Part shown: one piece after another, positions 436 to 4,755 of the stretch
How positions within the stretch are numbered: position 1 is the stretch's first letter
Layout: each line of letters starts with the position of its first letter
NCBI RefSeq assembly: GCF_010119195.1
Contig: NZ_WRXL01000003.1
Span: forward strand, 1 to 64,000
Direction of reading: 5' to 3'
DNA: 64,000 nucleotides
Source of the DNA: Haloarcula salina
GTDB lineage: Archaea > Halobacteriota > Halobacteria > Halobacteriales > Haloarculaceae
Program-made: the position numbers and the translations under genes
The notes under the pieces: generated by a model
Database searches by the model: none
Told to the model about the DNA's origin: nothing
Seen by the model: the letters and a program-made list of their open reading frames with translations, nothing else

Positions 436-1830
436 ATGAGCGACGAGTTCGACGCCGTCGTCGAGGCGGTTCGAGAGCGGATCTCGCCCACCGGCGACGA
501 GCGAGCGCGGTTACAGCGGGTCGCCGACGCCGTGATGGCCGACGCCGAGTCGGCGATCGCCGAGCTGCCGGTCGACGCCGAGGTCGTCCAGGTCGGATCG
601 ACGGCCCGCGGGACGTGGACCGCCGGCGACCGGGACGTGGACGTGTTCGTCTGCTTCCCGCCGTCGCTGGACCGGGAGACCCTGGAGGAGTACGGGCTGA
701 CCGTCGGCCACGCGGTGTTGCCGGAGGGGCGCGAGGAGTACGCCGAGCACCCCTACGTCGTCGGCGAGCGCGACGGCTACGCCGTCGATCTGGTCCCGTG
801 CTACGCGGTCGAATCGGCCACGGAGATCCAGTCGGCGGTGGACCGCACGCCATTTCACACGCGATATCTGGCGGCGCGACTGGGTGAAGACAGCGCCGGC
901 GACGTGCGCGTGGCCAAGCAGTTCCTGAAGGGCATCGGCGCGTACGGGAGCGATCTGCGGACTCGGGGGTTCTCGGGTTACCTGACCGAGCTGCTGGTAC
1001 TGGAGTACGGCGGCTTTCGCGGGCTGATCGAGGCGGCGGCGGACTGGCACCCGCCGGTCCGGCTGGACCCGGCGGACCACGGGGCGGCGACCTTCGACGA
1101 CCCGCTGGTGGTTATCGACCCGACGGACCCGGAGCGAAACGTCGCGGCTGTCTGTTCGACCGACAACGTCGCCCGGCTCCAGCACTACGCCCGCGACCTG
1201 CTCGACGACCCGCACACCGCCCTGTTCACGGCTCGCGAGCCCGAGCCGCTGGACGCGAGCGCAGTCGAGGCGGCCGTCGACCGACGGGCGACGACGCCGG
1301 TCGCGCTCCGGTTTGCGGCCCCGGACGTGGTGGAGGATCAGCTCTGGCCCCAGTTGCGCAAGTCGCTCGACGGTTTGCGGGGCGAACTCGACCGCCGCGG
1401 ATTCGACGTGTTCCGGGCGGCGGCGTTCGCCACGGACGGGGCCAGAAATTCCGCCGGATCCGGGACCGCAACGGGCGACGCCGTCCTGTTCATCGAACTC
1501 ACGGTCTCCGAACGCCCGGCCGTCGAGCGCCACGAGGGGCCGCCGGTCCACGTCCGCGAGCACGCCGGCGGCTTCTACGAGAAGTACGACAGTGACCCGG
1601 ACGTGGCCGGTCCCTTCATCGACGGCGACCGGTACGTCGTCGAGCGACCGCGGGAGTTCACCAGCGCGTCCGAGTTCCTGTCGAGTGACCGTGTCTTCGA
1701 CGTGGGGCTCGGGCCGCACGTCGAATCGGCGTTAGCCGACGGCTACGACCTGCTGGTCGGGACCGAGGTCGTAGCGCTGGCTGACGACTTCGGCGTCGAA
1801 CTGGCCCGTTACTTCGACCCGAAGCCCTGA
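436..1830 (+). CDS. cca: CCA-adding enzyme (archaeal class I tRNA nucleotidyltransferase)
   Basis: This cytoplasmic enzyme adds or repairs the 3'-terminal CCA of tRNAs using CTP and ATP. The 464-residue length matches archaeal class I enzymes. The nucleotidyltransferase core is visible as the G54-S55 helix turn followed by D65-R-D67-V-D69, where D67 and D69 would bind the catalytic metals. The central and C-terminal tRNA-binding parts follow without interruption. It sits beside two tRNA genes that lack encoded CCA, which fits its role. The last 22 nt overlap the 3' end of the convergent deacetylase gene. The ATG at 436 directly precedes the conserved start of the family. Confidence 0.95.
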   Translation: MSDEFDAVVEAVRERISPTGDERARLQRVADAVMADAESAIAELPVDAEVVQVGSTARGTWTAGDRDVDVFVCFPPSLDRETLEEYGLTVGHAVLPEGREEYAEHPYVVGERDGYAVDLVPCYAVESATEIQSAVDRTPFHTRYLAARLGEDSAGDVRVAKQFLKGIGAYGSDLRTRGFSGYLTELLVLEYGGFRGLIEAAADWHPPVRLDPADHGAATFDDPLVVIDPTDPERNVAAVCSTDNVARLQHYARDLLDDPHTALFTAREPEPLDASAVEAAVDRRATTPVALRFAAPDVVEDQLWPQLRKSLDGLRGELDRRGFDVFRAAAFATDGARNSAGSGTATGDAVLFIELTVSERPAVERHEGPPVHVREHAGGFYEKYDSDPDVAGPFIDGDRYVVERPREFTSASEFLSSDRVFDVGLGPHVESALADGYDLLVGTEVVALADDFGVELARYFDPKP

Positions 1831-2816
1831 TCGGCGAGCGCGTCGAGCACGTCGCGGGCGTCGTCGCTGACCTCGTCGTCGGGCTCCATCGGCTGGTAGC
1901 CGTCGAACACCTCGTGGACGGTGGTCAGCGAGTCGGCGAGCGTGTCCAGCCCGTAGCCGCCTTCGAGAACGAAGCCCAGGTCGGCCCCGCAGGCGTCGGC
2001 GAGCGTGCGCACGCGGTCGGTCATCGCGCCGTAGCCCTCGGTCGAGACGCGCATTCTGGAGATGGGGTCGTGTTCGTGGGCGTCGAAGCCGGCGCTGATG
2101 AGCAGCAGGTCGGGGTCGTAGTCGCGGATCGCCGGGGCGAGGCACTCGTCGATGGCGGCGAGGTAGTCGGCGGTGTCGGCCCCCGGCTTGTACTTCACGT
2201 TGAGGTTCGTGCCGTCGGCGTCGCCCGTGCCGGTCTCGTCGACGTCGCCGGTGCCGGGGTACAGTCCGTCCTCGTGGATCGAGGCGTAGAACACGTCCGG
2301 GCGGTCGTAGAAGATGTCCTGCGTGCCGTTGCCGTGGTGGACGTCCCAGTCGAAGACGGCGACGCGCTCCGCGTCGGCTTCGAGGGCCGCCTGCGCGGCG
2401 ACTGCGACGTTGTTGATGAAGCAAAAGCCCATGGCGTCGTCGCCGACGGCGTGGTGGCCCGGCGGTCGGCCGAGCGCGAAGGGCGTGTCGCGGCCGTCGT
2501 CGCCGGCGAGCGCGGACTCAGCGGCCCAGACGGCGAGTCCGGCGGCGGCGAGCGCGGCGTCCCAGGTTGCCTCGACGGCGACGGTGTCGGCATCCCAGTT
2601 CCCGCCGCCCTCCTCGCAGAACGTCCGGAACTCGTCGATGTAGTCCGCCCCGTGGACCTCGGTGACGAGGTCGACGTCGACGTCGCTCGCGGCGACGTAC
2701 TCGACGCCGTGGTGTTCCTTGAGCGCGCGCCGTATCGCTCGAAGTCTGTCAGGGCTCTCGGGGTGTCGCGGGCCGGTGTCGTGGTCCAGACAGACTTCGC
2801 GGTAGCCGAAGTTCAT
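1809..2816 (-). CDS. hdaI: Histone deacetylase family protein (class II type, HdaI-like)
   Basis: A zinc hydrolase of the arginase/deacetylase fold that removes acetyl groups from lysines or other amines. Visible active-site elements are H121-H122 in RPPGHH, the D158-V-H160 zinc ligands in FDWDVHH, D245 in SAGFDAH, and the GGY motif ending at Y288. The 335-residue length is normal for prokaryotic members. Its ATG abuts the stop of the upstream histone gene with no base between, so the two are very likely translated from one mRNA. The Haloferax homologue is reported as important for growth. Whether the natural substrate is the histone, another protein or a small acetylated amine cannot be told from sequence. 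Confidence 0.93.
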   Translation of the reverse strand: MNFGYREVCLDHDTGPRHPESPDRLRAIRRALKEHHGVEYVAASDVDVDLVTEVHGADYIDEFRTFCEEGGGNWDADTVAVEATWDAALAAAGLAVWAAESALAGDDGRDTPFALGRPPGHHAVGDDAMGFCFINNVAVAAQAALEADAERVAVFDWDVHHGNGTQDIFYDRPDVFYASIHEDGLYPGTGDVDETGTGDADGTNLNVKYKPGADTADYLAAIDECLAPAIRDYDPDLLLISAGFDAHEHDPISRMRVSTEGYGAMTDRVRTLADACGADLGFVLEGGYGLDTLADSLTTVHEVFDGYQPMEPDDEVSDDARDVLDALADQGFGSK

Positions 2817-3254
2817 TCAGTAGTACGTGGCGAGTTCGAAGTAGGTTTCCACGTCCGCTGCCTTGATGGTTCGGCGGTCAGCGTGACGGGCCAACGCCGC
2901 GGCCGCCGCGGCCGTGTCGTCGGCGTACGTTTCGAGGATCGACGCCAGCGCGACGCGGGCGTCCATGGCGACGCGGTAGTCGTCGTCGATGTCGAGCCTG
3001 GCGATGCGGTCGACCGGGGCGACGGGGAGTTCGAGTCCGTCTTTCTCCGGGACCCCCTCGACACCGAAGTCGGCAGGCATCAGCGTCTTCCGGCCGTCGG
3101 CCGTGGCCTCCTCGGCCGCCGAGACGGCCAGCGCGGCCCCGTGGTCCTGTATCCGGCGAGCCAGTTCCTCCGCAGCATCGGCACTCACCCGGAGTCCGTC
3201 CGCGTTCCGTCGAATGACTGCATCCACCGGGGCGAACGGTAGCTCGACACTCAT
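2817..3254 (-). CDS. hstA: Haloarchaeal doublet histone (two fused histone folds)
   Basis: This 145-residue protein contains two histone-fold repeats. Each starts with ELP(F/V)APVDRI-like residues (about 4-15 and 75-86) and ends with an R-K/R-T...AAD/PAD loop (about 55-63 and 127-135). Haloarchaeal histones are known to be such end-to-end fusions, and their role as chromatin or regulator is debated. The protein is very acidic and has only three lysines (K56, K71, K131). The start is the ATG at 3254; the extra in-frame codon upstream is TTG. A CTTAAGA TATA box 28 nt upstream implies a leaderless transcript. It is co-transcribed with the deacetylase and lies next to the ssDNA-binding protein gene. 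Confidence 0.93.
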   Translation of the reverse strand: MSVELPFAPVDAVIRRNADGLRVSADAAEELARRIQDHGAALAVSAAEEATADGRKTLMPADFGVEGVPEKDGLELPVAPVDRIARLDIDDDYRVAMDARVALASILETYADDTAAAAAALARHADRRTIKAADVETYFELATYY

Positions 3255-3277
3255 ACGCAAACCCGGGAGTGTTGCGG

Positions 3278-3285
3278 TCTTAAGA
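3278..3285 (-). promoter_or_regulatory. TATA box of the histone-deacetylase operon
   Basis: The minus strand reads CTTAAGA centred about 28 nt before the histone ATG. That spacing predicts transcription starting at or within a base or two of the start codon. A matching CTTAAG box precedes the neighbouring RPA gene at 4785-4790. Confidence 0.6.
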
Positions 3286-3309
3286 GTTTCCGTAGCGCCG
3301 CTCGGCGAC

Positions 3310-4755
3310 TCAGAACACGTCCTCGGCGTCGAGGCGGTCGTCGCGGAGCTCGCCGCGGACCGTCACCTCCTGACCGAGCTGGACGCGCTCGCCGGTCTCG
3401 ACGCTCATCGTCTGCTCGCCGTCGTCGAGAACGACGGGGTCGCCGGTCTGGACGACGGTGCCGGTGAACTCGACCTGCTGGCCCGCGCTCTGGGCGGCGT
3501 CGCCCGTGGTGCCCGCGTCGGGTGCATCCGCACTCTGGGACGCCTCGTCAGCGGCCCCGCCGTCGCCGTCCGCGAACGACGAGAGGCCGGCGTTCGCCGA
3601 GTCGTCGGCGTCCGCGCCGGGCGCTGCACCGCCGGTGTTCAGGTTCGCGCCGTCGTCGAGGACGACGACCGTCGACTGCCAGCCGGCGGAGGCCTCCTTG
3701 TCGTCCTGCCAGCCGTCCTGGATCTCCACGTCGGCCGCCAGCACCTCGTCGCCCGGCGCGATCTCGGCGTCGGCCTTGTCGCCCCACAGCGCCACGCGGA
3801 TGTCGCCGGTGGCGTCCTGGATGCGGACGTTGCGAACCTGGCCCTCGCTGCCGTCGTCCCGGTCGAACGTCCGCTTTGGGTCGGCCGAGCGGACGACGCC
3901 GGCGATGTCGACCGTGTCGCCGATCTCGACGCGCTCGATCGCGTCCGCCTCCGGTTCGAAGGCCACGTCCTCGTCGACCTCGTCGACCGCGCCCTGGTCG
4001 CCGACGTGCAGTTCCAGCGCGCCGTCGCGCTCGCGAACGTAGCCGTCCACGACTTCGACGGCCGCCCCAGCGTCGAGTTCCTCGGCGCGGTCGGCCCGGT
4101 CGTCCCACAGCGTGACCCGGATGCGGCCCGTCTCGTCGCCGAGCGTGAGGTTCGCGACCCGTCCCTCGCTGCCGTCGTCCCGGTCGAACGTCCGGATCGA
4201 GTCGGTGTCGAGGACGAGCCCCCGAAGCGTCACGTCCGACTGGCCCATCGTCAGCGAGTCGATGGACGAGCCGCCGCCCGGCTCCACGTCGATCTCGGCG
4301 TCCTCGTCGGGTTCGGCCTTGTCGACGGACACTTCCAGCCCGTTGTAGCCGTCCTTCGGCCGGCCCTTGACGCGCAGCACGTCGCCGACCTCCAGTCCCC
4401 CGTCGTCGATGTCGACGGCCTGGCCGTCCCAGAACGCCAGCCGGACGCTCCCGGTCTCGTCGGCGGCCTCGATGTTGATGACGCGGCCGTCCTCGTCCTC
4501 GCCGTCGCGCTCGAACGTGCGCAGGTCGCCGACCGACAGCACCTTCGCCAGGAACTTCACCTCGTTCATCCCCGGTTCGACGTCGGCGATGGCGTTGACC
4601 TCGTTCTCGTTGAGTTCGTGGGCGAGCAACATCGCGGCCGTCTCCTCGTCCGCGAGCCCACCCATCTGCTCGACCTTCTCCTCGACGGCCTCGCGGAACT
4701 CCTCCTCGGAGACGTCCGTCTCGAGATCCGCGTAGATATCCTCTATCGCACCCAT
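3310..4755 (-). CDS. rpa2: RPA-like single-stranded DNA-binding protein with several OB folds
   Basis: Binds and protects single-stranded DNA during replication and repair. The 481 residues contain at least three OB-fold units, marked by repeated strings such as FDRDDGSEG followed by a strand like IRVALW or IRVTLW (around residues 65-110, 170-220 and 265-320). An acidic, alanine-rich linker (about 350-435) and a short C-terminal OB-like segment follow. The N-terminal 60 residues are helical. No zinc-ribbon cysteines are present, which suits the Haloferax RPA2 type that stands alone rather than the RPA1/RPA3 types paired with associated proteins. It lies upstream of the histone gene on the same strand with a short gap, so read-through is possible. 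Confidence 0.88.
   Translation of the reverse strand: MGAIEDIYADLETDVSEEEFREAVEEKVEQMGGLADEETAAMLLAHELNENEVNAIADVEPGMNEVKFLAKVLSVGDLRTFERDGEDEDGRVINIEAADETGSVRLAFWDGQAVDIDDGGLEVGDVLRVKGRPKDGYNGLEVSVDKAEPDEDAEIDVEPGGGSSIDSLTMGQSDVTLRGLVLDTDSIRTFDRDDGSEGRVANLTLGDETGRIRVTLWDDRADRAEELDAGAAVEVVDGYVRERDGALELHVGDQGAVDEVDEDVAFEPEADAIERVEIGDTVDIAGVVRSADPKRTFDRDDGSEGQVRNVRIQDATGDIRVALWGDKADAEIAPGDEVLAADVEIQDGWQDDKEASAGWQSTVVVLDDGANLNTGGAAPGADADDSANAGLSSFADGDGGAADEASQSADAPDAGTTGDAAQSAGQQVEFTGTVVQTGDPVVLDDGEQTMSVETGERVQLGQEVTVRGELRDDRLDAEDVF

Follow-up and report, generated by a model that had tools for sequence, protein, structure and literature searches.

In the haloarchaeon Haloarcula salina the gene for a doublet histone is followed, with no base between the two, by the gene for a deacetylase of the HDAC family, an arrangement that raises the question of whether the histone is the substrate of the enzyme or whether the two genes are kept together on some other account. 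We have examined this question in the window, that is, the whole stretch of 64,000 nucleotides analysed (positions 1 to 64,000 of contig NZ_WRXL01000003.1, assembly GCF_010119195.1), and by comparison of 179 distinct histone loci from 194 genomes of the class and 80 named ones. The account we hold to be the most probable, though with some reserve, is that of a class-wide, coupled operon whose enzyme, HdaI, would be a general lysine deacetylase with mainly non-histone essential targets. The features on which the analysis turns are as follows.

436..1830, plus strand: archaeal CCA-adding enzyme, convergent to hdaI
1809..2816, minus strand: HdaI-type Zn-dependent deacetylase (PF00850), 335 aa
2814..2819, minus strand: TGA/ATG junction, zero bases between the codons, no Shine-Dalgarno sequence before the second ATG
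2817..3254, minus strand: doublet histone, acidic (HstA/HpyA ortholog), 145 aa, pI 4.5
3087..3089, minus strand: codon for K56, which belongs to the L2 loop (GRKT) of the first fold (position computed from the start at 3254)
3279..3291, minus strand: BRE/TATA of the predicted leaderless histone promoter, -37 to -25 relative to the ATG, from class-wide column conservation
3310..4755, minus strand: single-stranded DNA-binding protein of RPA type (PRK07211), upstream of the histone on the same strand
G000:C8:531059-531223, outside the window (locus L322): miniature histone, 55 aa, acidic, with a DRKTV loop

Near the left end of the window, the minus strand carries the RPA-type gene (4755-3310), the histone gene (3254-2817) and the deacetylase gene (2816-1809) in that order. 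The histone TGA occupies 2819-2817 and the deacetylase ATG begins at the directly adjoining base, 2816, exactly as the preliminary description of this DNA had placed them (2817-2819 and 2814-2816). On the other side, the 3' ends of cca and hdaI form a convergent overlap of 22 bp (1809-1830). Besides this doublet histone, the genome encodes one PF00850 deacetylase, one Sir2 and, elsewhere, one or more acidic miniature histones of 55 aa. The closest named relatives of the doublet histone are from Haloarcula species (93-94% identity), and the two genes are orthologous to hstA-hdaI of Haloferax, being one copy of a class-wide two-gene operon. This operon is already described in Haloferax, its overlap and cotranscription having been published by 2010. 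In Haloferax volcanii, hstA (HVO_0520) and hdaI (HVO_0522) likewise encode a doublet histone and then a class-II-like HDAC, and the genes are described there as overlapping and cotranscribed (PMC2946573); HstA is the sole histone in a second report (PMC10128011). The two systems differ in spacing, which is 0 here, whereas the Haloferax genes overlap (-1 in H. profundi), and in lysines, which are K56, K71 and K131 here and K56 and K120 in H. profundi. HpyA of Halobacterium salinarum, from a different genus, is also a haloarchaeal histone, 65% identical to HstA and dispensable (PMC10128011).

Pfam family CBFD_NFYB_HMF (PF00808) matches the histone in two stretches (9.6e-23) and an AlphaFold2 model (pLDDT 94.3) shows two folds, its best match in the PDB being 1F1E, the doublet histone of Methanopyrus. 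It thus has two tandem folds in one chain, and its length (145 aa) and pI (4.5) may be compared with the values of about 143 aa and about 4.7 given for the 'acidic doublet' cluster (PMC13260811). The RxT loops of its two folds, R55-K56-T57 and R127-R128-T129, are invariant or nearly so, as in a doublet histone, and DNA binding in vivo has been reported for HpyA/HstA (PMC10128011).

The census of the histone-deacetylase pair across the class, which is new, shows that its gene order is general. A histone and a PF00850 protein are both present in all 194 class genomes, and the deacetylase gene lies downstream of the histone gene on the same strand at 176 of 179 distinct loci; the order is not a peculiarity of this strain, the outcome that the preliminary description had named as a refutation. 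The RPA gene lies upstream on the same strand at 167 of the 179 loci, and among the 102 loci whose flank is long enough the CCA enzyme is convergent at 65. The spacing between histone and deacetylase falls between -4 and +7 nt at 165 loci, the commonest values being 0 (51 loci), -4 (44), +1 (24), +4 (17) and -1 (16). The preliminary description had put its weight on zero spacing: this is what is found here, as at 51 of the 179 loci in all, but we reject exact zero as the conserved feature, that feature being tight adjacency. Wide spacing occurs at four loci, of 137-158 nt at three of them (two being named Halorussus) and of 605 nt at one.

Upstream of the histone, 164 distinct regions aligned at the ATG reveal a BRE (GGAAA, -37 to -33) and a TATA element (TTAA, -29 to -26), with column conservation reaching 1.7 bits. 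From the position of these elements, we infer a leaderless transcript, its start lying on the histone ATG or directly beside it. A TATA-like element is in place before 177 of 179 histones as against 2 of 172 deacetylases, in support of the earlier proposal that a single leaderless promoter serves both genes, and a Shine-Dalgarno match precedes the deacetylase in only 2 of 172 cases, where shuffling leads one to expect 11. Since the deacetylase has neither a TATA element nor a Shine-Dalgarno sequence of its own, coupling by termination and reinitiation is likely. In H. volcanii, reinitiation requires an overlap or a very short spacing and is almost lost at about 20 nt, spacings of -8 to +10 being taken as predictive (PMC10666635); the pair lies inside this range, with a spacing of 0 here and of -4 to +7 at 165 of 179 loci class-wide. 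Within the window such a spacing is seen in only 2 of the 26 pairs of neighbouring genes on one strand, of which this is one. One leaderless mRNA would thus begin at this point, ribosomes would finish the histone at the TGA and reinitiate at the adjoining ATG of hdaI, and HdaI would thereby be produced in proportion to histone synthesis. The synthesis of the two proteins is therefore likely to be coupled, and the dosage-coupled synthesis suggested earlier is sustained as a reading of the spacing and of the missing Shine-Dalgarno sequence. Such coupling is nevertheless dispensable, given the gaps of well over 100 nt described above and the three species, discussed below, in which HdaI is absent. 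The need for dosage coupling is also in doubt, as the histones of Haloferax and Halobacterium are reported to be of low abundance and not to be proper chromatin proteins (PMC11894787). Between the TATA element and the ATG, columns -18/-17, -13 to -10, -7 and -2/-1 (GT) are also conserved class-wide (1.5 bits at -13; about 3255-3272 on the minus strand of the window), and these are possibly an operator or initiator element.

If the histone is a substrate, its lysines must be the sites of action. K56, K71 and K131 are indeed its complete set of lysines, as previously claimed, though their scarcity is no puzzle: the genes of the window, chosen by codon-position GC, average 1.44% lysine, from which 2.1 are expected in 145 aa and 3 are found, an ordinary number for a protein of that length in haloarchaea. 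We accordingly discard the notion that the histone has too few lysines. In the model, the loop that joins helices 25-52 and 60-63 holds K56, the linker holds K71, and K131 stands one residue ahead of the last helix. K56 is the lysine of the RKT loop and K131 aligns with the lysine of HMfB that comes three residues later. The earlier placement of K56 and K71 is therefore upheld, but K131 is not the counterpart of K56 in fold 2, which is R128.

Nor are the three sites, which the preliminary description had treated alike, of equal standing. K56 is invariant in 174 of 174 distinct haloarchaeal histones, whereas lysine is found at position 71 in 90 and at position 131 in 71 of them. In 173 of the 174, the fold-2 residue that pairs with K56 by pseudo-symmetry is arginine, and K56 is the sole lysine in 47, including those of several Halorubrum species, Halonotius pteroides and Halohasta litorea. 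On the alignments, K56 is the one lysine available to a class-wide acetylation mechanism, a point that is new and that narrows the question of whether tailless archaeal histones are regulated by acetylation to one residue, the sole lysine in roughly one quarter of the histones. This conservation is, however, no proof of deacetylation. The RKT lysine, which K56 represents, is ancestral in archaeal histones and is present in 69 of 70 histone matches from other families of the phylum (some of these loci overlap), and its retention is explicable by DNA binding alone; the RPA protein (K71) and the CCA enzyme (K161) have invariant lysines too, and K56 is retained where HdaI is missing.

The latter case is provided by three species with genomes of 1.9-2.2 Mb (G001, G007 and G021), natural controls in which the doublet histone is kept, with K56 in all three, and the HdaI ortholog is absent. 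The single PF00850 protein of each falls in another clade, grouping with the second, unlinked deacetylase of another genome (G093); they thus appear to have lost HdaI itself and kept the histone and K56. That the linked deacetylase is the cause of K56 conservation is not supported, given its persistence at these three loci (L175-L177) and in single-fold histones generally. Two further genomes, G020 and G158, have weak second histone matches.

The enzyme itself has an intact active site. Hist_deacetyl (PF00850) matches it at 6.7e-86 (288.7 bits against a cut-off of 27.9), and the GHH motif (H121/H122), the Zn ligands D158, H160 and D245 and the catalytic Y288 are all present, and invariant in 29 aligned enzymes. 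It is the only PF00850 protein of the genome. The best structural matches of its model (pLDDT 90) are the lysine deacylase 5zmp, HDA15 and HDAH, with catalytic domain 2 of HDAC6 close behind; it shares the fold (TM about 0.8-0.9) and the catalytic residues of these enzymes, at an identity of only 28-37%. The gatekeeper motif is P251-I252-S253, with no glutamate gatekeeper. This equals the PIS motif found in bacterial ApaH enzymes (PMC11532494) and might suggest an acetylpolyamine amidohydrolase in place of a protein deacetylase, a reading we consider very improbable: the closest folds and sequences are lysine deacylases and not ApaH, the isoleucine resembles the leucine that, in place of the glutamate of HDAC10, favours acetyl-lysine (PMC5454378), and the Halobacteriales are named as lacking polyamines (PMC11532494). 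Protein lysine deacetylase is, on the model and motifs, the better assignment, and HdaI would be a general one of the HDAC6/HDAH-like class. All the histone-linked haloarchaeal deacetylases sampled form one clade (support 100/100 among 32 rows, the bootstrap being not fully settled). One genome with a linked pair also has a second HdaI-type gene on another contig (L302, G091:C2:225500-228000), with no adjoining histone, which looks horizontally acquired or duplicated.

As to which acetyl-lysines HdaI would act upon, in Haloferax hdaI is reported to be essential (PMC2946573), while hstA was readily deleted, with a growth defect (PMC10128011), and its product is thought too scarce for a main chromatin protein (PMC11894787). 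On this evidence, the essential substrate of HdaI is probably not the histone, and its essential work would most likely be on non-histone acetyl-lysines, an argument that fails if hyperacetylated histone is itself toxic. The earlier framing, that either the three lysines matter or the enzyme has another substrate, is thus a sound one, and the Haloferax genetics, in which hdaI is reported as essential and hstA as dispensable, speaks for another main substrate, with K56 still a possible site. Other candidates are the miniature histones and metabolic enzymes such as glycerol kinase, which is acetylated by Pat2 in H. volcanii (PMC12607858; PMC12853182). If HdaI does act on the doublet histone, K56 is the only site that would be able to matter class-wide, and its acetylation would take a positive charge from the DNA-contacting L2 loop. 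We regard as unlikely a one-site switch of this kind, in which K56 alone among the conserved residues can be acetylated and the eraser, through co-translation with the histone, keeps pace with its substrate.

A stricter form of this idea makes HdaI a dedicated histone deacetylase, which keeps K56 and perhaps K131 deacetylated and whose loss is lethal because acetylated histone misbehaves on the DNA. It was proposed from cotranscription (PMC2946573) and would account for the extreme conservation of gene order and the tight spacing; furthermore, 45% of short-spaced pairs in H. volcanii encode subunits of a complex, as opposed to 6% at wider spacing (PMC10666635), and K56 is never arginine although its fold-2 partner nearly always is. 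Its standing is nonetheless low in our estimation, with hstA dispensable in Haloferax and hpyA in Halobacterium (PMC10128011), K56 kept by the three species without HdaI, K71 and K131 not conserved and no acetylated histone of H. volcanii named in the main text of the acetylome paper for that species. A precedent for such a relation is Alba/Sir2 of Sulfolobus, where the archaeal protein Alba binds DNA and loses its acetylation to the deacetylase Sir2 (PMC2946573). That system differs in that Alba is no histone, the enzyme depends on NAD and the interaction was shown experimentally. Less probable again is that HdaI acts on the 55-aa acidic miniature histones. One is encoded in the same genome, 58 of the 59 haloarchaeal genomes sampled have them, and K7, K11 and K48 (the last in the RKT loop) are invariant in 19 distinct sequences, a small sample drawn from the closest matches; the gene is, however, not linked to hdaI. 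Miniature histones often occur in several copies per haloarchaeal genome.

Of these alternatives to a general deacetylase in a coupled operon, the one we would give most room, while still doubting it, is that linkage reflects only shared regulation or inheritance of a histone - HDAC - CCA neighbourhood, with no relation of enzyme to substrate. Outside the Halobacteria, at least nine families of the phylum have the HDAC and CCA genes next to each other in convergent orientation. In five of these there is no nearby histone, and in the other four (6 of 30 genomes checked) a histone lies 0.6-4.5 kb upstream of the HDAC on the same strand. Moreover, 55% of the short-spaced pairs in H. volcanii form no complex (PMC10666635). 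Inheritance alone would not obviously maintain a spacing in the coupling range in nearly all Halobacteria, however. Since HDAC and CCA genes are neighbours across these further families, the block may be old and inherited, and the haloarchaeal pair may be, judging by gene order, its compacted remnant; the association would then predate the Halobacteria, if inherited vertically. In the deacetylase tree, the histone-linked enzymes from outside the Halobacteria are not the closest relatives of HdaI. As far as the literature searched shows, histone-HDAC-CCA synteny in other families of the Halobacteriota is new. At five loci of these families (L278, L279, L280, L317 and L318), the order is histone, other genes, HDAC and convergent CCA enzyme, and genes near these blocks resemble, by eye, ThiI and THI4 homologs and a PIN/zinc-ribbon nuclease.
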